A stretch of 64,000 nt of DNA from Psychroflexus salarius (GTDB taxonomy: Bacteria > Bacteroidota > Bacteroidia > Flavobacteriales > Flavobacteriaceae): positions 434,001-498,000 of the forward strand of contig NZ_FQTW01000001.1 of assembly GCF_900129035.1 (NCBI RefSeq), read 5' to 3'. A program made the position numbers and the translations under genes. The notes beneath the pieces were generated by a model. That model searched no databases. It was given only the letters and a program-made list of their open reading frames with translations, and was not told the DNA's origin. Positions 4,818 through 53,575 of the stretch are shown here, piece by piece. The number at the start of each line of letters is the position of its first letter. Position 1 is the stretch's first letter.

Positions 4818-5782
4818 TAGTCTTGGTTATTTTGATATGGTGTGTGCTTTTTCCCAAATAGAGAAAAATGAACATATCTTTTAGGGTTTTCTTTAATATC
4901 TTTAAACAACAACTCTAATTCTTTAGAAGACTTTTCTAGGTTTGTATATAAATCTTCATCATTTATCAATTTACCTAAACTTCCTTCTCCATCTGAAATT
5001 TTAGTTGTGACTTGATTTAAATTTAACAAAGTTTGATCGATATTAGCAACCAAAGCTTGATATTCAATCTGTGATAAACTATCGGTGATTTGAACTAAAT
5101 TTTCTGAAGTTTTATTAAAATTACTGATAGATTGGTTTAAATCTGAATCTTCTTGGTTTATATTTTTGTTGAGTGCATCAGCCGATAGACGTATTGATTT
5201 TAAAGTTAGTGTTAATTCTGCAACTGCGGTTTGAACTTCACTTCTGGTATTTGGATTCAATACCTGGTTAACGCTAGTAACTAAAGAATCTATACTAACA
5301 ACCGAACGTTCTATTTTAGCTTGAAGCGGTGTTAATTTGTCATTCACAAGTTCTAACAATCCATCATCAATATTGCCAATTAAAGTATCTCCAGAAACGG
5401 CTTTTGTGGGGTTTTTAAAATTTGGTTCAATCGCAATAGATTTGCCACCGATAAAATCGCCGCCAAAAATATTTACCACACTATTTTTTGAAAATTGAAA
5501 ATCGCTATTAATACTCAGCTCTACCAAAACCTTACCTGTTTCATTTAGAAATCTAATGTCACTAACTTGACCAACTTGTAAGCCGTTAATGGTAACTGGC
5601 GAAGAATTTCCTAAACCTTGCACATCGTCATAAACCGCGTAAAATGTACGTGATTTATTTAATAAGTTATTGCCTTTTAAGTAGTTATAGCCAAATACAA
5701 AAAGCGTAATCGCCACAATGGCAATTAGTCCTGCTTTAAATTCTTTTGATAGTTTCAAGTTTTGAATATTTTGAATGTTCAA
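4817..5782 (-). CDS. MCE-family (MlaD-like) lipid transport protein
   Basis: 321 aa. A single N-terminal membrane helix (FKAGLIAIVAITLFVFGYNY, residues about 15-35) anchors the protein. An MCE domain follows, with the typical YDDVQGLGNSSPVTINGLQV segment, and then a long helical region (about residues 140-300) predicted to form the tube seen in MCE proteins. Family members shuttle phospholipids between inner and outer membranes with an ABC transporter. No MlaE or MlaF gene is adjacent, so partners must be elsewhere. The gene lies 38 bp downstream of the amidase and overlaps the membrane Fe-S gene by one base. Confidence 0.92.
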   Translation of the reverse strand: MNIQNIQNLKLSKEFKAGLIAIVAITLFVFGYNYLKGNNLLNKSRTFYAVYDDVQGLGNSSPVTINGLQVGQVSDIRFLNETGKVLVELSINSDFQFSKNSVVNIFGGDFIGGKSIAIEPNFKNPTKAVSGDTLIGNIDDGLLELVNDKLTPLQAKIERSVVSIDSLVTSVNQVLNPNTRSEVQTAVAELTLTLKSIRLSADALNKNINQEDSDLNQSISNFNKTSENLVQITDSLSQIEYQALVANIDQTLLNLNQVTTKISDGEGSLGKLINDEDLYTNLEKSSKELELLFKDIKENPKRYVHFSLFGKKHTPYQNNQD

Positions 5783-5820
5783 ATGTAATAAAATAAGCTG
5801 TAAGATGAGAATAAATAAGC

Positions 5821-6906
5821 TTATTTGAGTGCTTCTTGAATACTAACTATTTGTCCTGATTTATTAAAAGCAACGATAAAAGCGCCTTTAAAAGACTTAG
5901 ACTCGGCTTTGTCTTTCAAGCTTTTGGCATCTAAGTAGTTTTTAGCTTCACCATAAAAATATTTATAAATGTTACCTACTTTTAAACGTGATATTAAATC
6001 TAAACCTTTGAAATTGTAGGGTTTTGTTTCAATTTTTTTTGAACTTGCTGCAAGTTGAACTTTAAATGTGTAACCTTGTTTGTCTTCAGTCAAATCCTTA
6101 GCTTCAACTTGCATCCCAGCTATTTGAGCATCTAAACTTTCTAAATTGATGATGTTTTTATAATTAATTAGTCCATCTACAATAGCTTCAGCCATCTTGG
6201 TTTGTCCTGTTTTTGAGTTTAAAAATCGGCCTTCAGCTTTATTGGTTAAAAAACCTGTTTCAACAAGAATACTTGGCATGTAAGTTTCTCTTAAAACTAA
6301 AAAACCTGCCTGTTTCACTTTTCGGTTTTTTCGGTTAAGCACGCCTGTAAACTGTTTTTGTACATAATTAGCTACCAAAATACTTTGATCAAGAAACTCC
6401 TCTTGCATCAAACTGAAAATAATGTAAGATTCGGGAGATTCTGGATTAAATCCATCATACTTTACTTTATAATCTTCTTCTAGCTTGATAACAGAGTTTT
6501 CTTTCATCGCTATTTCAAGGTTATCTTTGTTACGATGTAGACCTAGAACGAAGGTTTCAGCGCCATAAGCACTTGAAGTGTGTGCATTACAATGTACTGA
6601 AACAAATAAGTCGGCTTTAGCATCATTAGCTATATGCGCGCGCTTATGTAAAGGAATAAATACGTCGGTTTTACGGGTGTAAATCAGTTCTATATCTTGA
6701 TAATCTTCAAGTAATTGACCAACTTTTAAAACAATTTTTAAGGCAATATCCTTTTCATTGTAACCATTACCTGTATTACCAGGATCATCACCACCGTGAC
6801 CAGCATCAAGTACAATTTTGAAGGTTTCATTTTGTGCAAAAAGCTGATTACCAATTGGTGAAATAATTAAAAAAAACAGAAATAGTACAATATGTATTAA
6901 CTTCAT
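5821..6906 (-). CDS. N-acetylmuramoyl-L-alanine amidase (Amidase_3) with C-terminal SPOR-like domain
   Basis: 361 aa. An N-terminal signal peptide ends near LFAQ. The Amidase_3 zinc-hydrolase fold shows VLDAGHGGDDPG (first His ligand), the region around NEKD (Glu ligand), SVHCNAH (second His) and VETGFLTN (catalytic Glu). The last 80 or so residues (FKVQLAASSKKIE to the end) look like a SPOR-type peptidoglycan-binding domain. It cleaves the amide bond between MurNAc and the stem peptide in the periplasm, for daughter-cell separation or recycling. The gene is divergent from lptD and heads the minus-strand cluster that ends with the GH3 gene. Confidence 0.95.
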   Translation of the reverse strand: MKLIHIVLFLFFLIISPIGNQLFAQNETFKIVLDAGHGGDDPGNTGNGYNEKDIALKIVLKVGQLLEDYQDIELIYTRKTDVFIPLHKRAHIANDAKADLFVSVHCNAHTSSAYGAETFVLGLHRNKDNLEIAMKENSVIKLEEDYKVKYDGFNPESPESYIIFSLMQEEFLDQSILVANYVQKQFTGVLNRKNRKVKQAGFLVLRETYMPSILVETGFLTNKAEGRFLNSKTGQTKMAEAIVDGLINYKNIINLESLDAQIAGMQVEAKDLTEDKQGYTFKVQLAASSKKIETKPYNFKGLDLISRLKVGNIYKYFYGEAKNYLDAKSLKDKAESKSFKGAFIVAFNKSGQIVSIQEALK

Positions 6907-6972
6907 AAGTTGTGTTTTCAGGGCAAGTTTTGAGTTTTAATAAATATATGAGTTACATACTAAAATAATATG

Positions 6973-6980
6973 TAATTTTG
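6973..6980 (+). promoter_or_regulatory. Putative -7 element of lptD promoter
   Basis: TAATTTTG matches the Bacteroidota -7 consensus TAnnTTTG and lies 46 bp upstream of the TTG start of lptD. A convincing TTG at -33 is not seen at the 19-bp spacing, so the site is tentative. Confidence 0.4.
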
Positions 6981-7026
6981 GACTTTCAAAAATCAAGCCA
7001 GTTACACAAAAATAGTCTTATTAATC

Positions 7027-9690
7027 TTGCAAACAAATCAACTACAACTACTTTTTTTGTTTTTAATGGTTTCCATAATGGCAAGTCAGGCTCAAGTAAT
7101 CGATACGACTAAAACAACTCAAGATAGCAACAAAAAAGTAACTGACTCTATTAAGGTTGATTCAGTTAAAGTTAAAAAATCGCTTTTAACCGATATCATT
7201 GAAACTACAGCTAAAGATTATAAACGTTTTGCTAGAAAAGAAAACAAGCTTTACTTGTATAATGAAGCTGAAATAAATTATCAAGATTATAATATTAAAG
7301 CAGGGCAAATAGTAGTAAATAACAATAACAACATGGTCTTTGCAGCTGGAATTGTTGACTCAACTGGAAGTTATACACAACGACCTATTTTTGAGCAAGG
7401 CAGCAATGTTGTTGAGCCTGACAGCTTGGTATTTAATTTTGATTCCAAAAAAGCCATTGTTTATAACTCACGTACAAAACAAGGCGCTTTTAATGTTAAA
7501 AGTAGAGTTTCTAAACGGGTAAATGATTCGACTTATTATTCTGCAGATGCCATTTTTACGACCGATGACGACTTAGAAGATCCTGATTATTATTTTAGAG
7601 GACGAAAAATAAAGTTTGTCCCAGATAAGAAAATTGTAACAAGTTGGGTAAATATGTATATTGCTGATGTCCCAACACCGCTAGGTTTGCCATTTGGATA
7701 TTTCCCACTAACCGACAAACAAGCTTCTGGTTTTATTATTCCATCATTTGGTGAAAATGCCAACCGTGGCTTTTTCTTACAAAATGGCGGTTACTATTTT
7801 GCCATTAACGATTATGTTGATTTAGCTTTATTTGGTGATTATTACTCTAACGGTAGTTACGGTTTTAGAGCTGAAACTAATTATAATGTGCGTTACCGTT
7901 TTAACGGAAACTTCAACCTAAGAATTGAAAAATTATTAAGTGAAGAACGCGGATTCCCTAACTTTTCAGAACAAAGCATCTTCAATTTAAGATGGTCTCA
8001 CAACCAAGATTCAAAAGCGAGTCCAAATTCAAGATTTTCAGCTTCTGTAAACCTAGGTAGTAGCAATTTCTACAGGCAATCTGTTAACCAAAATAATACA
8101 GGTAACTTTTTAAACAACACCTTAAATTCTTCGGTTTCTTTTTCTAAAACCTTTGATGGCGAACCTCAAATGAATTTAAACTTAACAGCAACCCATAGCC
8201 AGAATACTAACACCCAACAAATTAATATGACTCTACCAACGCTACAATTTAGTGTTGGTAGAATTTTTCCGCTTGCACCAAAATCAGGTGTTAAAAAAGG
8301 AGCCATCGAAAACATTAACCTACAATATAATGTAAGAGCCGAAAACAGAATTAGAACAAGCGATTCCTTATTTTTTAAACCACAAATGTTTAGAGACGCT
8401 CAAGTTGGCGCAAGACACTCAATACCAATATCAACTAACTTTAAAATTTTTAAACACTTTAGCGTTAGTGCTTCTACAAACCTAGAAGAAGTTTGGACGC
8501 TTAAATCGATTAAACAAGATTTTAATCCAACAACACGTCAAGTTGTTAGAGACACTTTAAATAATTTTGACCGCTATTTAACCTATAACTTTAGTTCTAG
8601 TATCGGTACCACTGTATATGGTAAGGTAAATTTTGGTGATGACAAAAAAATAAAGGCTATTAGGCACGTCATGCGACCAAGTATTGGTTATAATATTAAT
8701 CCGGGTTTTGACCAATATTACGATGAATATATCAGACCTGGAATTGCAGGTGCTGAAGACGAAATTATTGAGTATTCACGTTTTGAAGGAACGCTTTATG
8801 GCGCACCAAATAACCGGTTTTCTAATGGTATTTCATTTAGTTTAACTAATGATTTTGAAGCCAAAGTGCGTAAAAAAGACTCAACTTTAACTGGAGAAGA
8901 TCGATGGGAGAAAAGAAAATTACTGAATAACCTAAGTTTTAGCACGAATTATGATATAGCTGCAGACTCGCTAAACCTAAGTGAAATAGCTGTAAGAGCT
9001 TCAATACCTGTCGTAAAAGATAAGTTAACCATTAATGCCATAGGATCTCTAAATATTTATGCCTTAGATAACAATAACCGTTTAATTGATAAGTTAAATA
9101 TTGAAAATGGCGGAAGCTTATTTCGTTTAACACGAGGAAATTTAAGCTTTAATTATGCCCTTGATAGCAGAACACTTTTTGGCAAAGATGATGAAGATGA
9201 TGATAAAAAATCAGATAATAAAACTTCAGAATCTGCTTTAAATGGCGGTCGAGACGATAATTTATTTGGTAGTAGTGAACCGCTCAACACTACAAATAAT
9301 CGCAAAAACAACAAAGATAAACCTAAGTCTGAAAAAGAAAATAAGCTTTACAATTACAACATTCCGTGGAGTTTAAATTTAGCCTACACCTTAACCTACA
9401 ATAATAGGGCAAGAGAAAATGAAATTGGCTCACATTCCATCATGTTCTCCGGCGATGTTGAATTATCACCAAACTGGTCAGTCGGTGTGTCTTCTGGTTT
9501 TGATTTAAAAGACAAAGGTTTCACATTTACACAATTTAGATTTTCTAGAGACCTTAATACCTGGCGAATGAACTTTAATTGGACGCCATTTGGCACCCGT
9601 AAATCTTGGTTTTTCTTTATCGGTATTAAAGCCTCAGTACTTAGCGATATAAAATATGACAAAAACCGAGAACGCGACAGACAATTATAA
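7027..9690 (+). CDS. lptD: LPS transport outer-membrane protein LptD-like
   Basis: 887 aa from a TTG start at 7027; the start was chosen because it gives a complete signal peptide (hydrophobic LLFLFLMVSIMASQAQ) and no upstream ATG is in frame. A downstream ATG at 7066 would cut the hydrophobic core. An N-terminal OstA/LptA-like jellyroll region (about residues 60-230, with YNEAEINYQDYNIKAGQIVV) precedes a long barrel of alternating aromatic strands ending in WFFFIGIKASVLSDIKY. In Flavobacteria this is the large LptD variant, which inserts lipopolysaccharide into the outer leaflet. An Asp/Lys-rich low-complexity stretch (DDEDDDKKSDN, near residue 720) is probably an exposed loop. Confidence 0.88.
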   Translation: MQTNQLQLLFLFLMVSIMASQAQVIDTTKTTQDSNKKVTDSIKVDSVKVKKSLLTDIIETTAKDYKRFARKENKLYLYNEAEINYQDYNIKAGQIVVNNNNNMVFAAGIVDSTGSYTQRPIFEQGSNVVEPDSLVFNFDSKKAIVYNSRTKQGAFNVKSRVSKRVNDSTYYSADAIFTTDDDLEDPDYYFRGRKIKFVPDKKIVTSWVNMYIADVPTPLGLPFGYFPLTDKQASGFIIPSFGENANRGFFLQNGGYYFAINDYVDLALFGDYYSNGSYGFRAETNYNVRYRFNGNFNLRIEKLLSEERGFPNFSEQSIFNLRWSHNQDSKASPNSRFSASVNLGSSNFYRQSVNQNNTGNFLNNTLNSSVSFSKTFDGEPQMNLNLTATHSQNTNTQQINMTLPTLQFSVGRIFPLAPKSGVKKGAIENINLQYNVRAENRIRTSDSLFFKPQMFRDAQVGARHSIPISTNFKIFKHFSVSASTNLEEVWTLKSIKQDFNPTTRQVVRDTLNNFDRYLTYNFSSSIGTTVYGKVNFGDDKKIKAIRHVMRPSIGYNINPGFDQYYDEYIRPGIAGAEDEIIEYSRFEGTLYGAPNNRFSNGISFSLTNDFEAKVRKKDSTLTGEDRWEKRKLLNNLSFSTNYDIAADSLNLSEIAVRASIPVVKDKLTINAIGSLNIYALDNNNRLIDKLNIENGGSLFRLTRGNLSFNYALDSRTLFGKDDEDDDKKSDNKTSESALNGGRDDNLFGSSEPLNTTNNRKNNKDKPKSEKENKLYNYNIPWSLNLAYTLTYNNRARENEIGSHSIMFSGDVELSPNWSVGVSSGFDLKDKGFTFTQFRFSRDLNTWRMNFNWTPFGTRKSWFFFIGIKASVLSDIKYDKNRERDRQL

Positions 9691-45714: not shown

Positions 45715-45830
45715 AATAATTGAAATTTTACACAAACATAGAGTTATTTTTAATTTACCCCTATATTTTTAGTGTTAAATTTAGATTATTTATATGAAAA
45801 ACATTTTTACCCCTAAAAATTATGACCCAA

Positions 45831-45980
45831 GCGCCAAAACAACACATATTAAATAAGGAATTAAAATTAAAGCGCCTTCATAATGATCGATGGAATGCTG
45901 TTTTGGTAATAGCACCTAACCTCTCATAAAACAAGTCAATTAAATTAACAAAAAAATGACTTTTTCGCACTTATAAGCGG
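45831..45980 (-). pseudogene. Decayed remnant of the Na+/Ca2+ antiporter 3' end (copy A)
   Basis: 45831-45911 matches the last codons of the complete antiporter at 52628 (shared run TATTAAATAAGGAATTAAAA at 45848-45867), and 45932-45980 matches a segment about 165 bp further upstream in that gene. The stretch between has been deleted relative to copy B (47434-47709). No usable frame is left. It directly precedes leader copy A. This explains much of the 585-bp gene-free gap 45715-46299; the rest of the gap is leader. Confidence 0.8.
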
Positions 45981-46128
45981 TTTTGAAAAGAATATTTTAA
46001 AAATAGACAGCACATTATTATGAAAAAACAATTTTAACATTATAGTTAAGGCTGTTTGTATTTTTTTTTTTTAGGTTCGTATCATAATCAATTAAAACCG
46101 CTATGTTTTCTTAGTTAATCATTAAAAA

Positions 46129-46263
46129 GAGAAAGCTCCTACAAGGTAGAAGCTTCTCCCGAAAGATGCATGAAAAACTTACATCTCACTCAACAATGCA
46201 AATGTAAGGTTTTCATGAGACCTGAACAGCCTCTTGAGCTGAAAAACACCATCCGTTAAGATG
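46129..46263 (+). ncRNA. Structured leader RNA, copy A (four hairpins)
   Basis: Four hairpins: H1 46129-46158 (GAGA/TCTC, AGCT/AGCT and CTAC/GTAG stem segments), H2 46169-46217 (CATGAAAA/TTTTCATG plus CTTACAT/ATGTAAG, 15 bp around one A-G mismatch, 17-nt loop), H3 46227-46241 (CAGC/GCTG) and H4 46250-46263 (CATC/GATG). The four differences from copy B fall in loops of H3 and H4 or between and after hairpins; no stem base differs. It could be a cis-regulatory RNA; no known class is recognised. Confidence 0.55.
46170..46259 (+). CDS. Possible leader small protein, copy A (29 aa, frameshifted)
   Basis: ATG 46170 opens a frame for MKNLHLTQQCKCKVFMRPEQ and nine more residues, with a CxC motif at residues 10-12. 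It ends early at TAA 46257-46259 because a run of five A (four in copy B) shifts the frame after residue 25. In the copy-B frame, the two substitutions would be conservative (Leu/Phe, Val/Ile). It overlaps hairpins H2 to H4, so the conservation could equally be due to RNA structure. Existence as a protein is uncertain. Confidence 0.3.
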   Translation: MKNLHLTQQCKCKVFMRPEQPLELKNTIR

Positions 46264-46299
46264 ATAAACTGACAATCTAATTTTTTTAATTTTAATATC

Positions 46300-47037
46300 A
46301 TGAAAATAATAAAAAAGTTTTATTTTGCTTTGTTGATAAGTTTTATTTCTTGTTCAACAAGTGATGATGAATTTTCTACATTCAATCATAGTAATGAAAA
46401 TACGCAGTCTTTAGAATTAACAAAAAAAAATAACATTCATAAAACAACTAATGTAATTAGTATATTACTATTTAAATTGGGTGTTGAAAAAATAATAGTT
46501 GATAAAACAAATAATGACCTTATAAGATACAACTTTAAAACTTTTAAAAGTTTTATAACTAAAGGGGAATTTATAGACCTCTCTAATTATACAATTATAT
46601 TGGAATCGGGAACTCTTTATTTAGAATCTGAACCAAATTATAAAATTAGCCTAAATAACGGCGAAATCTATTTAAGAACTAGCCCTGATAGTGAACTAAT
46701 TAAACAAAATAACATAAGCGACAACATTAGTATTAGAATCCTTAAATCTTTCCTTATAGAAATGACAGCTTCTAATGAAGTAAAGATGAACTTTCAAAAT
46801 CATATTGATAATATTGTTACTGAAAAACGCGTTGGTTGTTCATTTTGGGACACTTATGTTGTTTTTAGTGGCGTTATGCCTTCTAGTAGTCATAGTTTAG
46901 CCGAAGCTAACCTACAAGACGAAATAGCAGCTTACGCATCTGAATTATCAGGTTGTAGGAAAGTTGGTGGTGTTGATACATCTTGTGTTTCGGGAAATCA
47001 CGCTTGTTGGTCTACTCAAAACTATTGTTGTGATTAG
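46300..47037 (+). CDS. Lipoprotein with Cys-rich C-terminal tail, unknown
   Basis: 245 aa. The N-terminus (FYFALLISFISCSTSDDEF) is a lipoprotein signal with Cys near residue 18. The middle is polar, with strand-like repeats of hydrophobic/charged residues (YTIILESGTLYLESEPNYKI). The last 70 residues contain six cysteines: VGCSFWDTY, LSGCRKVGG, DTSCVSG, NHACWSTQ and NYCCD at the very end. This resembles disulfide-rich secreted peptides such as the C-termini of Bacteroidota NVEALA-type precursors, but no match is claimed. It is preceded by leader copy A and followed by its own terminator. Confidence 0.72.
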   Translation: MKIIKKFYFALLISFISCSTSDDEFSTFNHSNENTQSLELTKKNNIHKTTNVISILLFKLGVEKIIVDKTNNDLIRYNFKTFKSFITKGEFIDLSNYTIILESGTLYLESEPNYKISLNNGEIYLRTSPDSELIKQNNISDNISIRILKSFLIEMTASNEVKMNFQNHIDNIVTEKRVGCSFWDTYVVFSGVMPSSSHSLAEANLQDEIAAYASELSGCRKVGGVDTSCVSGNHACWSTQNYCCD

Positions 47038-47052
47038 TATAATCAAAGTTAT

Positions 47053-47096
47053 AAACAACTTCTCAAAGCTAGTATTTTGGGAAGTTGTTTAAAATA
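47053..47096 (+). terminator. Terminator after the Cys-rich lipoprotein gene
   Basis: Stem AAACAACTT (47053-47061) with AAGTTGTTT (47082-47090), extended by CTCAAA/TTTGGG, giving about 15 bp including one wobble pair. It follows the stop by 16 bp and separates the lipoprotein from the small membrane protein. Confidence 0.75.
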
Positions 47097-47170
47097 ATCA
47101 AATTAATAACTAAAATTAGTTAAATTCCGTATTATTATTTAATAAATTTAAGTCAAAAAAATATACAGTT

Positions 47171-47398
47171 ATGAATTTAGTTTATGGGTTGATAACCCCT
47201 ACAGTAAGTCTTTTAATTGGAGTGATATATGCGATAGTACTAATTTATTCAATTTTTATTATTGTTAAAAACGAAAAAAGTATTAATGCGCTATTGTGGT
47301 TAATTTTTGCGCTTTTTATTCCTTTTTTTGGAAGTTTAATTTACATAGCTAGACATTTCTTGTACAACAAGAAGAATAATTTTGAATTAAACAATTAA
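47171..47398 (+). CDS. Small two-helix membrane protein, PLDc_N-like (75 aa)
   Basis: Two membrane helices: VSLLIGVIYAIVLIYSIFII and ALLWLIFALFIPFFGSLIYI. The W-x-x-F-x-x-F-x-P-F-x-G-x-x-x-Y pattern in the second helix is that of PLDc_N (cardiolipin-synthase N-terminal) domains, which also occur alone in small proteins, some beside bacteriocin genes as putative immunity proteins. An inverted repeat TAACTAA-AA-TTAGTTA at 47107-47122 lies upstream and may be an operator. Its stop is followed 13 bp later by the antiporter remnant B. Function unknown; an immunity role is only a hypothesis from position. Confidence 0.65.
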   Translation: MNLVYGLITPTVSLLIGVIYAIVLIYSIFIIVKNEKSINALLWLIFALFIPFFGSLIYIARHFLYNKKNNFELNN

Positions 47399-47433
47399 GT
47401 GATAAGTTAATTTTACAAGCTATAACTTAGCAT

Positions 47434-47709
47434 TTAAAATCTCAGCGCTAAAAAAACAAATATTAAATAAGGAATTAAAATTAAAGCCCCTTTATAACGA
47501 CCGATGGTGTGCCGTTTTGGTAATAAGGCTAAAATCAAGATCAATACGGCAAAGCCAATCATCCAAAATATATCAACACTTAAAACAGATTTAGTTTGCA
47601 ACGCAATAGGCTTAATCATAGCCGTTATACCTAACACAGAGGCGATATTAAAAATGTTAGAGCCAATTAAATTACCTAAAGAAATGGCTTTTTCGTACTT
47701 AAAAGCGTT
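47434..47709 (-). pseudogene. Remnant of the Na+/Ca2+ antiporter 3' end (copy B)
   Basis: Matches the complete gene at 52628-53575 with about ten base differences over 270 bp. The frame remains open for about 91 codons (KYEKAISLGNLIGSNIFNIA to the stop), but no start or membrane N-terminus exists, and the homology stops abruptly at 47709 where the leader-cassette sequence begins. The repeat extends leftward to 47412 and includes TTTACAAGCTATAAC, the last codons and stop of the barrel-protein gene, matching 52606-52620. Together with the leader it fills the gene-free gap 47399-48029. Confidence 0.85.
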
Positions 47710-47858
47710 TTTAAAAAGAATATTTTAAAAATAGACAGCACATTATTATGAAAAAACAATTTTAACATTATAGTTAAGGCTGTTTGTATTTTTTTTTTTT
47801 TTAGGTTCGCATCATAACCAATTTAAATCGACATGTTTTCTTAGTTAATCATTAAAAA

Positions 47859-47992
47859 GAGAAAGCTCCTACAAGGTAGAAGCTTCTCCCGAAAGATGCA
47901 TGAAAAACTTACATCTCACTCAACAATGCAAATGTAAGGTTTTCATGAGACCTGAACAGCCTTTTGAGCTGAAAACACCATCCATTAAGATG
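47859..47992 (+). ncRNA. Structured leader RNA, copy B (four hairpins)
   Basis: H1 47859-47888, H2 47899-47947, H3 47957-47971 (loop CTTTTGA) and H4 47979-47992 (loop CATTAA). All stem bases match copy A. The ATG of the 71-residue protein lies 38 bp after H4. Confidence 0.55.
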
Positions 47993-48001
47993 ATAAACTG
48001 A
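47900..48001 (+). CDS. Possible leader small protein, copy B (33 aa)
   Basis: ATG 47900 opens a 33-codon frame, MKNLHLTQQCKCKVFMRPEQ plus 13 residues ending KMIN. It has no shift, unlike copy A, and is the more likely ancestral form. Residues 10-12 are CKC. It ends 28 bp before the next ATG. It overlaps the hairpins, and neither reading can be excluded. Confidence 0.35.
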   Translation: MKNLHLTQQCKCKVFMRPEQPFELKTPSIKMIN

Positions 48002-48029
48002 CAACTTAATTTTTTTAAATTTTAATATC

Positions 48030-48245
48030 ATGAAAAAAGTATTTTCAATTATTGCAATCGGTGCAATGACCCTAAGTTTAAGTAGTTATAGCTTACCTGA
48101 AACGCCATCAGATTGCGTTAGAGAATCATTAGCTATTGTAGAATCAGTTGCTGATGAATTTGGAGATGATTTAAATGGCGAATTTAAAAACTTTTATATG
48201 GCAGAATATTTAGATATGTATGAAAGTTGTGTAAATTCTCTGTAA
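48030..48245 (+). CDS. Small exported protein (71 aa), unknown
   Basis: A signal peptide KKVFSIIAIGAMTLSLSSYS is followed by a mature part of about 48 acidic residues: LPETPSDCVRESLAIVESVA and ending EYLDMYESCVNSL. Two cysteines (after LPETPSD and near the C-terminus) could form a disulfide joining two helices. No family is recognised. It follows leader copy B and is closed by its own terminator, so it forms a single-gene transcript in the same position as the Cys-rich lipoprotein after copy A. Confidence 0.72.
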   Translation: MKKVFSIIAIGAMTLSLSSYSLPETPSDCVRESLAIVESVADEFGDDLNGEFKNFYMAEYLDMYESCVNSL

Positions 48246-48257
48246 ATCAAATTTATT

Positions 48258-48288
48258 AACCGCTTGAAATTATTTTAAGCGGTTTTTA
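48258..48288 (+). terminator. Terminator after the 71-aa protein gene
   Basis: Stem AACCGCTT (48258-48265), 11-nt loop, stem AAGCGGTT (48277-48284) running into T. It follows the stop by 12 bp. Confidence 0.83.
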
Positions 48289-48303
48289 CTTAAATATTTT
48301 AAA

Positions 48304-49011
48304 ATGAAGAATTTGATTTTATATACTTGTTTAGTTTTTAGTTACTTTTTTTATGCTCAAACTAACAATATTTATGAGGTAGATTACGTCTTACAACTGG
48401 ATCATGAGGTTTTAAATAAATCTCTAAAAACGATGAAAAACCAAAAAGTAAAACATTTTATAGCCAAACATGCTGATACCTTTGAAGAAGTCCAAGCCAA
48501 GTTAATTTTTAATGCTAAGGCTGCTAAATATGCTGTTCGAAAACAACTGCAAAATGATTTTAATCAAAAGTCTAATTTTTTTGAAAAGCATGCAGGAGGA
48601 AAGTCAACCTACTATTATGATAATGAAAAAAAAATAGCCTATTACACTTCTACTTTGATAAATAAAACAAATGTAGTGTATGAAAGAGAATGGAAAATCT
48701 TAAAAGAAAGTGAAGAGATTTTAGGTTTTAGATGCTACAAAGCTGAATTAATTCTTGATCAAGAAGGAAAAATGTTTGTGTGGTTTACCAATGAAATACC
48801 TTATCCTTATGGACCATTGCGATTTAATAATTTACCGGGTTTAATTTTAAAAGCAGAGGTAAAAAACGGTTTAATCACTTATTTAGCGACTAATATAAAG
48901 ACAAAAAGAAAAAACAAACCGATCATTGAAGAAACCGATCATCGGTTTATGAGTGAGGAAGAATACATGAAGGAATTGAAGAAAAACAACCCACTATTTG
49001 AGGGTTTTTAA
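48304..49011 (+). CDS. GLPGLI-family protein 1, exported
   Basis: 235 aa. Signal peptide (LILYTCLVFSYFFYAQ). The family motif is present as NLPGLI at residues 176-181, within the wider pattern VWFTNEIPYPYGPLRFNNLP. An upstream LGFRCYKAEL segment is also typical of GLPGLI proteins. The family is a Bacteroidota paralogous set of unknown function, often beside outer-membrane barrel genes, as here. It differs from its neighbour at 49103 by a substituted first motif residue (N instead of G). Confidence 0.88.
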   Translation: MKNLILYTCLVFSYFFYAQTNNIYEVDYVLQLDHEVLNKSLKTMKNQKVKHFIAKHADTFEEVQAKLIFNAKAAKYAVRKQLQNDFNQKSNFFEKHAGGKSTYYYDNEKKIAYYTSTLINKTNVVYEREWKILKESEEILGFRCYKAELILDQEGKMFVWFTNEIPYPYGPLRFNNLPGLILKAEVKNGLITYLATNIKTKRKNKPIIEETDHRFMSEEEYMKELKKNNPLFEGF

Positions 49012-49024
49012 AAATAAAGTTTAA

Positions 49025-49093
49025 ACCTTTTTCTATCTCGAAATTTGTGAAGATTCAGACGGAATACCAGAAGATGTAGCTATTATCGACTAA
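49025..49093 (+). pseudogene. Possible 20-codon relic of a coding sequence
   Basis: In one frame the gap reads FFYLEICEDSDGIPEDVAII then D and stop (TAA 49091-49093), with a stop just before it. It looks like the C-terminal end of a secreted domain left behind by a deletion. It may be chance. Confidence 0.25.
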
Positions 49094-49102
49094 ACAACAA
49101 TT

Positions 49103-49849
49103 ATGAATTACAAACGACTTTACATTTTAGTATTATTATTAAATTTTACTTTAGCCCACGCACAATCTGATTTTAAAGTAACTTACAAAAAAAGAGTGCT
49201 ACCAGAATATTTTCAAATTTCGGACTCTGTGAGTGACGTTAAAAAATCAAGATATTTGAAAGTAAGAAATAGCGTAAAACGAAATATTGGTAAATTTAAA
49301 TATACTTTACAAATAGATACGGAGTCTAATATTTCTGAGTTTAAGGTGATTGAAACCATGAGTGTTGATGGCAACGAAAGGTTTAACAACAATTTGAAAG
49401 GTATGTTAGGCGGTCGTTTTCCGATATATAATCATTTAAAAAAAGATAGTGTTTTTGAAAATGCTGATTTCAGAGGAAAGATATATTTTACAAGTTACAA
49501 AAGCCCGCGATACAAATGGCGTTTAACAAAGAAAACGAAAGACATTCTTGGTTTTAAGTGTTATTTGGCTGTTACTGAAGAGAGCACAGACAAAACGGTT
49601 ATTTTTAATTTTCAAAAAGATAAAAAGGAAGCTTTTCATGCTTGGTACGCACCGAGTTTACCCGCTAAATATGGACCATCATTTTTTACAGGTTTACCAG
49701 GATTAGTATTGCAAGCTGGAAATAAGAAAATGGAAATTTATGCCCTAGATATAAAAAATGTTAGCAATGTAGAGGTTGAATTTCCTGACAAAAAATCAAT
49801 TACAGAAGAACAAAAAAATAAACAACTTAAAGCCTTGATTGGCAGGTAA
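49103..49849 (+). CDS. GLPGLI-family protein 2, exported
   Basis: 248 aa. Signal peptide (LYILVLLLNFTLAHAQ). Motif GLPGLV at residues 197-202 inside HAWYAPSLPAKYGPSFFTGL; ILGFKCYLA upstream is the second conserved block. A second copy of the same family as 48304, with limited identity, so an old duplication. It is separated from the barrel gene by a perfect terminator hairpin. Confidence 0.9.
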   Translation: MNYKRLYILVLLLNFTLAHAQSDFKVTYKKRVLPEYFQISDSVSDVKKSRYLKVRNSVKRNIGKFKYTLQIDTESNISEFKVIETMSVDGNERFNNNLKGMLGGRFPIYNHLKKDSVFENADFRGKIYFTSYKSPRYKWRLTKKTKDILGFKCYLAVTEESTDKTVIFNFQKDKKEAFHAWYAPSLPAKYGPSFFTGLPGLVLQAGNKKMEIYALDIKNVSNVEVEFPDKKSITEEQKNKQLKALIGR

Positions 49850-49874
49850 AATAAATGTAAAATCGTTTGTTTTA

Positions 49875-49905
49875 TTTAACCCTCATTTTTGAGGGTTAAA
49901 TTTTT
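49875..49905 (+). terminator. Terminator after GLPGLI gene 2
   Basis: Perfect 10-bp stem TTTAACCCTC (49875-49884) and GAGGGTTAAA (49891-49900), loop ATTTTT, then T run. Confidence 0.85.
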
Positions 49906-49940
49906 ATGATAATTGATACAAAAAAAATTTAAATTTATAT

Positions 49941-52619
49941 ATGAATCAACTATTCAAAATATTTCTATTAATCCTCATCCCACTGACCAGTTTTCCCCAA
50001 ACCCACGAACTTGAAGGCAAAATTCAAGATAGTCTTCAGAACGGCATTCCCAACACCAATATCATAGCCACACCTTTAGACACAGATGATGAAATCACCT
50101 TTTCCATCAGCGACCAAAAGGGCAGATACCGCTTAATACTGAGTGAGCATTCAAGATATCTGGTAGAAATCACACACTTGGGCTTTAAAAAAATTTCAGA
50201 TACCATTCAGATTTCAGAAGATCAAACACAGAATTTCACCTTACAAGAAAGTACAGAAAGCTTAGAAGAAGTCTTAATTCGTCAGGAAATGGCAGTTATT
50301 GTGAAAGAAGACACCATCACTTACCGCACCGACCAATTCAAAACAGGAGAAGAACGCAAACTGCGCGATGTGCTCAAAAAACTTCCCGGCGTCGAAGTCG
50401 ATCGGGAAGGCAACGTGAAAGTCAATGGAAAATCAGTCACTAAACTCATGGTTGATGGCAAAACCTTTTTTACCGGCGACGAAAAATTGGGTGTCAACAA
50501 TATTCCTGCCGATGCGGTCGATGAAGTCGAAGCCCTGGACAATTACAATGATGTGGCTTTTCTGAAAGGTTTGGAAGACAGCGACAAAATGGCGCTGAAC
50601 ATCAAGCTGAAAGACGGCAAAAAGAAATTTGCCTTTGGCGATGTAGAAGCCGGCGCAGGCATTGAAAACCGGTATTTGCTGCATCCTAAACTCTTTTATT
50701 ACAGCCCAAAAACCGCCGTCAATCTTATAGGCGATTTCAATAATGTAGGTCAGAAATCCTTTACCGTGCAAGACTATTTAGATTTTGAAGGCGGATTTGG
50801 TTTGGCGCTAGAAGACCCGTCAACCTATTTCAATTTATATTCAGACGAGTTTGCCCAATTTCTTCGAGAAGATGAATTTACCTACAGTAAAAACGATTTT
50901 GCAGCCGCCAGTTTGTATCAAGATTTAGGCAGGAATTTTAGTTTAGATGCGTACAGTATTTTCAACAAAGGCAAACTGCGCACCAAAACCGTTCAAGATA
51001 TTTCCTACCAATCGAGCAGTCAGGCAGACGAATTTCGGAATAATACCGGTCAAAACGATCTGTTGTTTAGCATCAACAAAATAAAACTGCGCTACGACAA
51101 TATGGACAATGTCGATTTGCGTGCCAACACCACCATAAAATACAACGATGGCGAATCGCAAAGCAATTTGAGTTCGTTGGTTCAAAACAATGAGGAATTT
51201 GTAAACACCAACAACCAACCGAGACAGCTGGAATTTACACAAACCTTGAATTTAAACACACAATTTTCTTATAAACATACCACAAAAGCAGAAATCACGT
51301 TCAAACATAGTGAAAGCAACAACAATCGCCTATGGGATTTCAACGAAGCTTTGTTTACCGATATAATGCCTTTGGTCGTTGAAGACGATAGTTTTCAGTT
51401 GGAGCAAGACCATACAACCAAACTGAATAACATCAAACTCAATGCGAAACATTATTGGGTGTTGGCAGATTTCCATCACATTTATCCTGTTGCTGGATTC
51501 AATTATTTCAACACGGAATTCAACACTCTAGACCGTCAAATATTGAACGATGGAAGCATCAACAGTTTTGAAGATGCGGGTTTCAACAACCGTTTGGATT
51601 TCAGTTTATTGGATGCGTATGTCGGTTTTCAGTACAAAACGCAAATCGACGATTTGGTGCTGCGTCCAGGTCTTGTTGTTCATAATTACAATTGGAATGT
51701 GGCGCAATTCAGCAATGAAATTGCCAACGAGAATAAGATGATGCTTTTACCAGAGTTTTTTGCTGAATATGAATTCAATTCTTCAAAAAAAATAAAACTA
51801 GAATACAATCGCTATTCGAATTTCAGCAAAATTTCGCAGTTTGCCAACCGCTTACGTTTGCAAAGTTTCAACCAGTTGTATCGTGGAAACAGCGAGTTAG
51901 AAAATCAAATTTATAATCGCATTCGTTTAAATTATCGGAATTTCAATATGTTCAGAGGCCTGATTTACTTTATCAACTTAAGTTACAGCCATCGCGAACA
52001 GAGCATCAGAAACCTCACGGAAATAGACGGCATCGACCAAATCAGCACAAGTATTTATACCGATTTACCAGAAAATACGTACAGCATTTCAGGAAATATC
52101 AACAAGCGCATTTCAGATTATAGGCTCAGTTTTGGGACTAATTTTAGTTTTTCAGATTATTCCAGAATTATCAATAATGAAACCTTAGATTACCAAAATA
52201 ACAACTATGGCTATAATCTAAAAGTGCAGACTAGATACGACGAATGGCCAAATTTGGAAGTCGGTTTTCGGCATTCATTTTCAGAATTGAGTTCAGAAAA
52301 TTCCACGAATGAATTTATGCGAATTACGCCATTTGCCATTTTAGAATATGATTTTTTCGAGGATTTCATTTTCAAATTCAATTATGATTATAATTATTTT
52401 GAAAACCAAAGCACCAACAATATCAACCGATTTGAAATTGCAGAATCCAGTCTGTTTTACAGCAAAGAAGACTCCGCGTGGGGTTTTGAAATTCAAGCCA
52501 CCAACTTATTTGATGTCAGTTTCAAAAGAGAAAACTCCGTCAATGAATTTATCGTCGCCGATCGGCGCATTTTTCTTCAACCCAGAACCATTTTATTCAA
52601 ATTGATTTACAAGCTATAA
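49941..52619 (+). CDS. Outer-membrane beta-barrel protein with carboxypeptidase-like regulatory domain (TonB-receptor-like)
   Basis: 892 aa. Signal peptide (FKIFLLILIPLTSFPQ), then a carboxypeptidase regulatory-like domain (residues about 22-105: HELEGKIQDSLQNGIPNTNI). Next is a plug-like domain with LRDVLKKLPGVEVDREGNVK and VNGKSVTKLMVDGKTFFTGD, and finally a barrel of the OMP_b-brl_3 type ending in ILFKLIYKL. Base and codon use differ from the flanking genes: Leu is often TTG or CTG, and two sampled 60-bp lines are 43% and 47% G+C. This suggests transfer. It is the GLPGLI partner by position; the ligand is unknown. It converges with the antiporter gene. Confidence 0.88.
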   Translation: MNQLFKIFLLILIPLTSFPQTHELEGKIQDSLQNGIPNTNIIATPLDTDDEITFSISDQKGRYRLILSEHSRYLVEITHLGFKKISDTIQISEDQTQNFTLQESTESLEEVLIRQEMAVIVKEDTITYRTDQFKTGEERKLRDVLKKLPGVEVDREGNVKVNGKSVTKLMVDGKTFFTGDEKLGVNNIPADAVDEVEALDNYNDVAFLKGLEDSDKMALNIKLKDGKKKFAFGDVEAGAGIENRYLLHPKLFYYSPKTAVNLIGDFNNVGQKSFTVQDYLDFEGGFGLALEDPSTYFNLYSDEFAQFLREDEFTYSKNDFAAASLYQDLGRNFSLDAYSIFNKGKLRTKTVQDISYQSSSQADEFRNNTGQNDLLFSINKIKLRYDNMDNVDLRANTTIKYNDGESQSNLSSLVQNNEEFVNTNNQPRQLEFTQTLNLNTQFSYKHTTKAEITFKHSESNNNRLWDFNEALFTDIMPLVVEDDSFQLEQDHTTKLNNIKLNAKHYWVLADFHHIYPVAGFNYFNTEFNTLDRQILNDGSINSFEDAGFNNRLDFSLLDAYVGFQYKTQIDDLVLRPGLVVHNYNWNVAQFSNEIANENKMMLLPEFFAEYEFNSSKKIKLEYNRYSNFSKISQFANRLRLQSFNQLYRGNSELENQIYNRIRLNYRNFNMFRGLIYFINLSYSHREQSIRNLTEIDGIDQISTSIYTDLPENTYSISGNINKRISDYRLSFGTNFSFSDYSRIINNETLDYQNNNYGYNLKVQTRYDEWPNLEVGFRHSFSELSSENSTNEFMRITPFAILEYDFFEDFIFKFNYDYNYFENQSTNNINRFEIAESSLFYSKEDSAWGFEIQATNLFDVSFKRENSVNEFIVADRRIFLQPRTILFKLIYKL

Positions 52620-52627
52620 CTTAGCAT

Positions 52628-53575
52628 TTAAGATCTCAGCGCTAAAACAACAAATATTAAATAAGGAATTAAAATTAAAGCCCCTTTATAACGACCGATG
52701 GTGTGCCGTTTTGGTAATAAGGCTAAAATCAAGATCAATACGGCAAAGCCAATCATCCAAAATATATCAACACTTAAAACAGATTTAGTTTGCAACGCAA
52801 TAGGCTTAACTAAAGCCGTTATGCCTAACACAGCCGCAATATTAAAAATGTTAGAGCCAATTAAATTACCTAAAGAAATGGCTTTTTCACCTTTAAAAGC
52901 GGCAATTAATGAAGCTGCTAACTCTGGAACGCTGGTTCCAAAAGCAATCATAGTTACTGATATTACTAATTCACTAACACCAAGTGTCTTAGCAATTTCT
53001 ACAGAACCTTGTACAAGCCAATCAGAACCAAAATACAAACCAAGACCACCAATAATTAACCAGACTACTATTTTAAAGGTTGAGACTTCTTTTAATTGCT
53101 CATCGACTTCTTCACTTGTAAAAGATTTTTTACCACGCACCTTTCTAACCAAAATAAATAAGTAAACAAACAAGCAACTTAACAAAACCAAGCCTTCTAA
53201 GGCTGAAATTACTTCACCAGACTTTAGCATAAAATACAATAAGCCTGAAAACAACATCATCACTGGCCAATTTAAACGGTAAAAGTCTTTATCGATCCCA
53301 ATACTCGAAATTAAGCTTGTTACTCCTAAAACTAAGCCGATGTTGGCAATATTAGAGCCGACTACATTACCCAATGAAATATCAGAAAAACCTTCTAAAG
53401 CCGCCTGTAAACTCACAATCAATTCTGGAGCCGAAGTCGAAAAAGACACAACGGTTAATGCAATGATCATTTTAGAAATCTTTAATTTAAATGATAAAGC
53501 AACAGATGAACGTACTAAAAATTCACCGCCAATAACTAAAGCTGCTAAGCCTATTAAAACTAAAATTACATTCAT
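52628..53575 (-). CDS. Na+/Ca2+ antiporter (CaCA family, YrbG-like), complete
   Basis: 315 aa, about ten membrane helices in two inverted halves. The alpha-1 repeat is TVVSFSTSAPELIVSLQAAL with NVVGSNIANIGLVLGVTSL; the alpha-2 repeat is MIAFGTSVPELAASLIAAFK with NLIGSNIFNIAAVLGITAL. This is the complete copy; its last third is present twice more as remnants at 47434-47709 and 45831-45980. It exports Ca2+ in exchange for Na+ or K+ (family knowledge). Confidence 0.94.
   Translation of the reverse strand: MNVILVLIGLAALVIGGEFLVRSSVALSFKLKISKMIIALTVVSFSTSAPELIVSLQAALEGFSDISLGNVVGSNIANIGLVLGVTSLISSIGIDKDFYRLNWPVMMLFSGLLYFMLKSGEVISALEGLVLLSCLFVYLFILVRKVRGKKSFTSEEVDEQLKEVSTFKIVVWLIIGGLGLYFGSDWLVQGSVEIAKTLGVSELVISVTMIAFGTSVPELAASLIAAFKGEKAISLGNLIGSNIFNIAAVLGITALVKPIALQTKSVLSVDIFWMIGFAVLILILALLPKRHTIGRYKGALILIPYLIFVVLALRS

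Follow-up and report, generated by a model that had tools for sequence, protein, structure and literature searches.

A candidate antisense small RNA gene in the leader of polymorphic secreted peptides, and the probable doubling of their cassette, in Psychroflexus salarius

Introduction

Type I toxin-antitoxin loci with a divergent antisense small RNA (sRNA) are known from zorO/orzO, shoB/ohsC and tisB/istR-1. Gene amplification may proceed via unequal crossing-over between flanking direct repeats, and promoters of Bacteroidota follow the -7 consensus TAnnTTTG. Among the secreted peptides of this phylum, the bacteroidetocins have double-glycine (GG) leaders of 15-16 amino acids (aa) and an ABC transporter/peptidase gene nearby (PMC6671954). 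Here we analysed a stretch of 64,000 nucleotides of the Psychroflexus salarius genome (assembly GCF_900129035.1, contig NZ_FQTW01000001.1, positions 434,001 to 498,000; hereafter the window), in which two copies of one leader precede genes for secreted-type proteins, next to an antiporter gene and the fragments of its 3' end.

The repeated leader appears to carry a previously undescribed sRNA gene that is divergent from the protein gene and overlaps its putative transcript; the sRNA may thus restrain a whole set of interchangeable secreted peptides. In the reading that we favour, with fair though far from complete confidence, the locus would encode polymorphic, bacteriocin-like secreted peptides under antisense-sRNA control, in a cassette doubled by unequal crossing-over. 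A literature search, whose reach excluded most subscription papers and all preprints, found neither a description of this arrangement nor one of the role of the GLPGLI proteins that accompany the peptides.

Results

The leaders of the window and the sRNA genes predicted within them, on the opposite strand, are as follows.

45975-46300, plus strand: leader 1, the 5' region of cargo 1 (sequence match and model)
46124-46206, minus strand: sRNA gene 1, with -7 box TACATTTG at 46206-46199, predicted 69-nt RNA at 46192-46124 and terminator stem at 46156-46132
47703-48030, plus strand: leader 2 (sequence match and model)
47854-47936, minus strand: sRNA gene 2, the same as sRNA gene 1 over 83 nt, with predicted RNA at 47922-47854 and terminator stem at 47886-47862

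The two leaders are 95% identical, and four further copies lie in the same genome on contigs C11 and C18, six in all. Covariance models were built from these six copies (R1) and from 34 copies (R2), and they placed the leader in 16 of the 27 genomes of the genus Psychroflexus. R1 gave matches in three of 299 genomes of the family, two of them in the genus; R2 gave matches in seven of 395 genomes of the order, three in the genus and four marginal at E of about 1e-3. The collected set of 39 sources (loci from 16 Psychroflexus genomes, 482 kb) holds 53 leader copies at E 0.001. Within 60 nt past the leader, 44 of the 53 have an open reading frame (ORF) with a signal-like start, compared with 63 of 4000 random positions of the same loci; such starts were judged by a regular expression and not by a signal-peptide predictor. 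So many copies at unrelated places could also suggest a mobile DNA element, resembling a miniature inverted-repeat transposable element, that inserts upstream of genes, but the short distance of 44 of the 53 from the start of a secreted protein makes this very improbable.

An earlier note on this DNA, made from its letters, had described the leaders as part of the local repeat; their genus-wide occurrence and the RNA-gene signals on the other strand go beyond it. It had also named leaders at unrelated loci without antiporter remnants as grounds for giving up its local history. The other leader copies of this genome are, taken literally, of that kind, and the local history is not refuted by them. 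A short upstream ORF in the leader was considered and dropped, as its frame differs between copies (by eye). In two genomes hairpin 1 of the leader holds an insertion with a palindrome of a C-run and a G-run (L143:9594-9701 and L141).

At first, from R1 and R2, we took the leader for a structured 5' untranslated region (UTR); this reading moved to second place once the antisense strand was found to fold better and to hold promoter and terminator signals. When both strands of 34 leaders were folded, the mean z was -2.36 for the sense and -3.97 for the antisense strand, and in 33 of 34 leaders the antisense value was the lower one. At most 8 bases after the CATGAAAA arm, the antisense strand has a -7-like box in 50 of the 53 leaders, 49 of them reading TAnnnTTG; this came from an anchored search expression that allows about 8 positions, and as background TAnnnTTG occurs at 1 in 467 positions. 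If the RNA is taken to begin 6 nt past the box, 49 of 53 leaders show at least four consecutive T downstream, and the predicted RNA has 65-74 nt in 45 of these 49. The predicted sRNA is about 69 nt long, with two hairpins and a covarying terminator stem. The 8 nt that precede hairpin 1 include at least five A (a T-run after the hairpin on the antisense strand) in 34 of 34 leaders; at least five T after it on the sense strand were seen in none of the 34. A terminator scan recovered both sites of the window (2 found, 0.8 expected).

Covariation was assessed in alignment A6 of 41 sRNA genes, 12 of the 53 having been left out for want of a match to the expression, as duplicates or for odd terminators. 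The terminator stem was paired in 95.8% of cells, versus 80.5% when shuffled and 49-64% when slid, with 97 double-change cells versus 39.7. In hairpin H1, wobble on the sRNA strand comprised 46 G-U against 13 A-C, counted over cells that are not independent. All eight predicted RNAs that were folded, two of them identical, gave z between -3.3 and -8.0. Moreover, all six close pairs keep the sRNA gene better than the remaining leader (p < 0.01; pairs not independent), and two distant pairs showed no difference; between the leaders of the window, the gene is identical at 83 of 83 positions and the remaining leader at 224 of 241. A third model, R3, gave 52 matches in the genus, in the same 16 of 27 genomes and all 52 inside leaders. 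Rfam 15, searched on both strands, gave nothing overlapping the sRNA even at E 5, and in the window only transfer RNAs reach the gathering threshold.

Could the leader instead be no more than a structured 5' UTR in the messenger RNA (mRNA) of the peptide, acting in cis as a riboswitch or stabiliser without an antisense sRNA? The leader does lie directly before the start codon, H1 and H4 covary also when read on the sense strand, and H4, located between the start codon and the sRNA promoter, has wobble pairs that speak for the sense strand (10 G-U vs 3 A-C). However, the better antisense folding, the T-runs confined to the antisense side of hairpin 1, the H1 wobble and the box at a fixed place in 50 of 53 copies all argue the other way, and we consider the 5' UTR alone improbable. 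The H4 data are in keeping with a sense mRNA, in which H3 and H4 may still act.

A pattern for hairpin 2 was also tried on the whole collection and rejected. Its 37 stretches comprise nine leaders (seven from named Psychroflexus, among them P. tropicus, P. lacisalsi, P. sediminis, P. curvus and P. salis, and two from a Flavobacteriaceae metagenome-assembled genome), 23 Bacteroidales matches and others; since the pattern contains the -7 motif, the 23 fit promoters and not leaders (by eye). In 21 of these 23, some from near-identical loci, TCTCATGAAAA stands exactly five bases before TAnnTTTG(C/T)A (e.g. L163, L167, L170, L171, L173, L175, L176, L179). It is a possible promoter-proximal element in Bacteroidales; the Psychroflexus antisense promoter is similar, with a spacing of 3-4 in the pattern matches.

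The sRNA, under a TAnnTTTG-like -7 box and with a 5' hairpin and an intrinsic terminator, would be transcribed divergently from each leader and be antisense to the 5' UTR of the peptide mRNA. We infer a sense promoter beyond the sRNA terminator, in which case the mRNA 5' UTR would be fully antisense to the sRNA. Most likely the sRNA would pair with its own 5' UTR and, in trans, with those of near-identical leaders, and so keep expression down until the sense promoter is activated. As the two sRNAs of the window do not differ over 83 nt, either one could act on both mRNAs. Upstream of 23 of the 53 leaders, within 160 bp, lies a palindrome ACGGTnnnACCG, of which all 482 kb of loci hold 38; it is absent before the leaders of the window, and its pattern was chosen after inspecting the sequences. 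The palindromes were also seen near a set of genes in L136 and L144. In this set a 58-59-aa lipopeptide gene is followed by TPR histidine kinase and response regulator genes, and the whole has the look of an operon for regulation by peptide sensing; it is found at L136:4256-5108 and 5152-7832 (genome G310), at L144:7290-10225 and at L224 (own genome, contig C33), and in G310 the small lipopeptide gene stands in four identical tandem copies.

The other features of the interval are listed below; the gene to their left is one that we take to be glnA-like.

45820-45980, minus strand: antiporter 3'-end remnant A, internally deleted, beside the glnA-like gene (sequence matches)
46300-47037, plus strand: cargo 1, a lipoprotein-like protein of 245 aa whose C-terminus is Cys-rich; no family reaches its cut-off
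47171-47398, plus strand: 75-aa hydrophobic protein, PLDc_N E 6.5e-6, in an immunity-like position
47412-47707, minus strand: end of the barrel gene and antiporter 3'-end remnant B (sequence matches)
48030-48245, plus strand: cargo 2, a 71-aa secreted-type two-Cys peptide; low-confidence model with two helices
48304-49011, plus strand: GLPGLI family protein adjoining the peptide, TIGR01200 E 2.7e-34
49103-49849, plus strand: second GLPGLI family protein, TIGR01200 E 7.5e-32
49941-52619, plus strand: outer-membrane barrel-like protein with CarboxypepD_reg; Plug weak, below its cut-off
52628-53575, minus strand: intact antiporter of the Na/Ca-exchanger family, its 3' end being the third copy

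Across the collected loci, two types of cargo follow the leader. In type a, which has peptides about 55-100 aa long, a conserved signal, in many of them MKKVFSIIALSAMTLSLSSF, precedes a variable mature part, usually with two Cys; GLPGLI genes come next and, in most arrays, the barrel gene too. Type b, to which cargo 1 of the window belongs, comprises proteins of 137-517 aa with lipoprotein-like starts, followed in five of seven cases by a 61-100-aa protein with hydrophobic stretches (by eye). In 26 pairs of leaders at least 85% identical, among 36 short-peptide leaders, the median score was 0.79 for the signal and 0.10 for the mature part, with the mature part below 0.15 in 19 of the 26.

The variable part goes together with the partner gene. 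The loci hold 81 GLPGLI ORFs; 43 have an upstream peptide passing the filter, 42 of these are unique, and 40 pairs were analysed after a membrane protein (L008) and a one-Cys peptide from G309, a close relative of the peptide of the window, had been dropped. Similarity of mature peptides and similarity of GLPGLI proteins were correlated with Mantel r 0.84 (0 of 5000 permutations); r was 0.85 between different genomes and 0.80 without close pairs, and the best peptide partner was the best GLPGLI partner in 16 of 22. The leader gave r 0.31 with the mature part and 0.50 with the signal (both 0 of 3000 permutations). Hence the mature part and GLPGLI behave as a swapped unit, and the leader and signal as a more constant one; peptides would be exchanged, each with its cognate GLPGLI, behind a constant leader and signal peptide.

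Both GLPGLI proteins of the window score above the NCBIfam cut-off of 50 bits for TIGR01200 (118.9 and 110.9 bits), and GLPGLI proteins also match PNGase_F-II_N and Porph_ging. A structural model of GLPGLI, with a predicted local distance difference test score of 59, resembles the PNGF-II enzyme (E 1e-5) and weakly LolA (E 9e-4) and MucB (E 5.5e-3); the latter likeness would suit a periplasmic carrier, and at this quality it proves nothing. No family above cut-off was found for the peptides, and a PADLOC defence search with six proteins gave only a weak match of the lipoprotein (E 0.0038).

The history of the cassette can be read from the antiporter ends and from the same site in relatives. 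As the earlier note had stated, with coordinates correct to within about 10 bases, two partial copies accompany the full gene. Copy B (47412-47707) matches 52606-52901 without gaps at 96% over 296 nt, which is far beyond chance; copy A is 86% identical to the full antiporter over 92 nt (45820-45911) and resumes at 45934-45980 past an internal deletion. At 72% (115/159), copy A, the older one, is equally distant from copy B, from the full gene and from the remnant in genome G315. A search of the whole 2.53-Mb genome (47 contigs) for the antiporter end gave four stretches at E <= 0.001, none outside this locus. Also as described before, both remnants join the same leader at one antiporter position (...TTAAAAGC|), and the 3' end of the barrel gene is kept beside copy B, from 47412, as beside the full gene.

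The comparison with relatives that the earlier note had called for was made in 7 of the 26 other genomes of the genus. The site is empty in five (G302, G307, G323, G310, G301), where the gap between the aligned ends of the glnA-like and antiporter genes, about 120-315 bp, leaves no room for a cassette, and in G319 the contig stops just past the antiporter. G315, the nearest relative (antiporter 96% identical), holds one cassette at the same site, comprising leader, 78-aa peptide, GLPGLI and barrel, with an antiporter remnant on the left and the intact gene on the right. A single unit between the same direct repeats in one relative and empty sites in others is what unequal crossing-over calls for. 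One unit in G315 has two ends, so n units leave n+1 ends, and the two units of the window account for three.

Unequal crossing-over between the flanking repeats would give the two-unit form in one step, with an identical junction and without a lost third unit. The history of the earlier note therefore stands in part: tandem duplication, loss of the barrel gene from one unit and exchanged cargo fit these data, and the third unit that had lost its leader and cargo does not. Such a three-unit origin does supply the three antiporter ends; the two ends beside the single unit of G315 and the glnA-side context kept by remnant A already disfavour it, and we regard it as highly unlikely.

Because the left remnants retain the glnA-side context and resemble the 3' flank of cassette-free genomes (by eye), the simplest view is that the left remnant represents the original antiporter 3' end and that the cassette brought the right copy; the full antiporter would now end in this imported copy. 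In our proposal, a cassette of leader, secreted peptide, GLPGLI and outer-membrane barrel was inserted between the glnA-like gene and the antiporter and left on either side about 270 bp of the antiporter 3' end, as a direct repeat; homology-assisted illegitimate recombination with donor DNA carrying the cassette and an antiporter end would suffice as its source. Unequal crossing-over between these repeats would then have doubled the cassette in the lineage of the window, and unit 1 would afterwards have lost GLPGLI and barrel, now holding other cargo. Remnant and full gene are 95.2% identical within a genome (260/273, for copy B of the window and for G315) and 86-88% across species, which suggests that the repeats go on recombining with each other; separate events would be the less simple account. 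Elsewhere in the genus, barrel 5' fragments precede three of four leaders in G301 (L116) and one leader in G304 (L122); such repeated fragments before leaders in L116, L121 and L122 (the latter two in G304) are further cases of tandem amplification.

Weaker relatives of the sRNA gene were found outside the genus. Among 397 genomes of the family, R3 picked up nine further loci in 8 (E 1e-4 to 8e-4); a rough calibration at E 0.001 per genome would predict about 0.4. R1 adds L022 in G078; all ten are weak matches. The R3 matches were first set aside and readmitted after alignments and a test for genes in the sense direction. A TAnnTTT box, e.g. TATCTTTA or TAATTTTG, stands at the first position of the model in eight of the ten, and the terminator stem is often CUACC-U-GUAG, as in Psychroflexus. 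A gene in the opposite direction with a signal-like start lies within 140 nt in eight of ten, versus 257 of 5000 random positions of the same loci (5%). In L231, L234, L235, L236 and L022 the box is 111-130 nt before the start, much as in Psychroflexus, and L022 precedes two Cys-rich secreted-type proteins. Three loci (L229, L230, L232) have the box on the start codon of lipoprotein-like genes, where it may reflect no more than start context, and neither L233 nor L239 fits. Taken together, an RNA gene placed before secreted-protein genes is probably wider than the genus.

Discussion

Several observations weigh against the reading that we favour, in which antisense sRNAs control swappable secreted peptides. 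Signals of the putative sense promoter are weak: a loose -7 pattern was seen in 33 of 52 leaders versus 31% in AT-matched background, and the strict TAnnTTTG in only 6 of 52 versus 5%. For the antisense boxes, a -33 TTG is present in only 16 of 50 and in neither copy of the window. Nine of the 53 leaders fail the cargo test. One of them is an artefact, in which the match overruns the start codon, five have no such ORF within 60 nt, and three have broken frames (L108, L122, L127). In these three the leader-borne gene is broken in or near the signal peptide, perhaps by decay, phase variation or assembly error. As to the partner genes, linkage alone can yield part of the correlation between peptide and GLPGLI, and only 43 of the 81 GLPGLI ORFs had a peptide passing the filter; the lower r between leader and mature part suggests that adjacency is not the whole cause. 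The models of both GLPGLI and peptide are of low confidence. A barrel match persists in six of the 11 genomes of the genus that lack the leader, so the barrel family can do without the sRNA. Finally, the 95% likeness of the antiporter ends within a genome needs later gene conversion, or separate events.

As regards function, pairs of effector and immunity protein, or of effector and carrier, fit best because mature parts are swapped together with a partner gene, several alleles occur per genome, and amplification is repeated. The peptides, once secreted, would most likely act as bacteriocin-like effectors that kill competitors; GLPGLI would serve in the periplasm as cognate carrier or immunity protein, and the barrel would form the gate in the outer membrane. 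Judged from sequence, we put a bacteriocin-like function tentatively at slightly under an even chance. Polymorphic peptides paired with a partner gene would also suit signals, such as pheromones or kin-recognition tags, with GLPGLI and barrel as the receiving side, and the palindrome ACGGTnnnACCG, present before nearly half of the leaders by a pattern defined post hoc, also lies near the operon of lipopeptide, histidine kinase and response regulator genes. Against this, the type b cargo resembles a bacteriocin with a small membrane immunity protein (by eye), no receptor domain was found, and the barrel is of the outer-membrane protein type. A signalling function thus seems to us rather unlikely.

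More broadly, one may envisage a new system of interbacterial competition in Psychroflexus, with a simpler form in other Flavobacteriaceae: polymorphic peptides with cognate GLPGLI proteins as carrier or immunity, a shared barrel exporter, divergent antisense sRNAs that silence paralogous leaders in trans, and cassettes amplified and swapped by recombination in leader and flanking repeats. This wider picture is speculative, and we think it doubtful as a whole.

Among described systems, the locus resembles type I toxin-antitoxin loci in that a candidate sRNA gene precedes a small-protein gene and points away from it, would be complementary to the 5' UTR of that gene, and occurs in several paralogous copies. 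Promoter-like box, terminator and covariation are present, and overlap with the mRNA hinges on the tentative sense promoter, as does the complementarity; neither strand has an Rfam match. The sRNAs would thus be a candidate family placed to control secreted effectors as antisense RNAs do type I toxins. A type I toxin is a small hydrophobic peptide of the inner membrane that harms its own cell, and the products here seem to differ from it in a signal-peptide-like or lipoprotein-like N-terminus, recognised by regular expression, and in a swapped mature part; the rest of the cargo peptides is mostly hydrophilic (by eye).

With the bacteroidetocins, as defined in PMC6671954, the locus shares small Cys-containing peptides of Bacteroidota. 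It differs in having Sec-type signals of about 20 aa and GLPGLI and barrel partners: by eye, 42 peptides have signals of this length and no GG there, in place of the 15-16-aa GG leader. No ABC transporter/peptidase gene is among the seven window genes scanned, other loci not having been searched.

The amplification itself agrees with unequal crossing-over: n units go with n+1 copies of the repeat, and a single junction is shared. It is unlike the usual case in that its repeat, an antiporter 3' end in duplicate, is already in place on both sides of a single unit; this would be a route of cassette multiplication: an insertion flanked by copies of the neighbour's end, then used as an amplification repeat. 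Lastly, the partner genes are members of the GLPGLI family (TIGR01200, PF09697), and here their place is immediately after the genes of hypervariable secreted peptides, with which they co-vary. This gives GLPGLI proteins a concrete context, in which a role as cognate carrier or immunity protein becomes testable.
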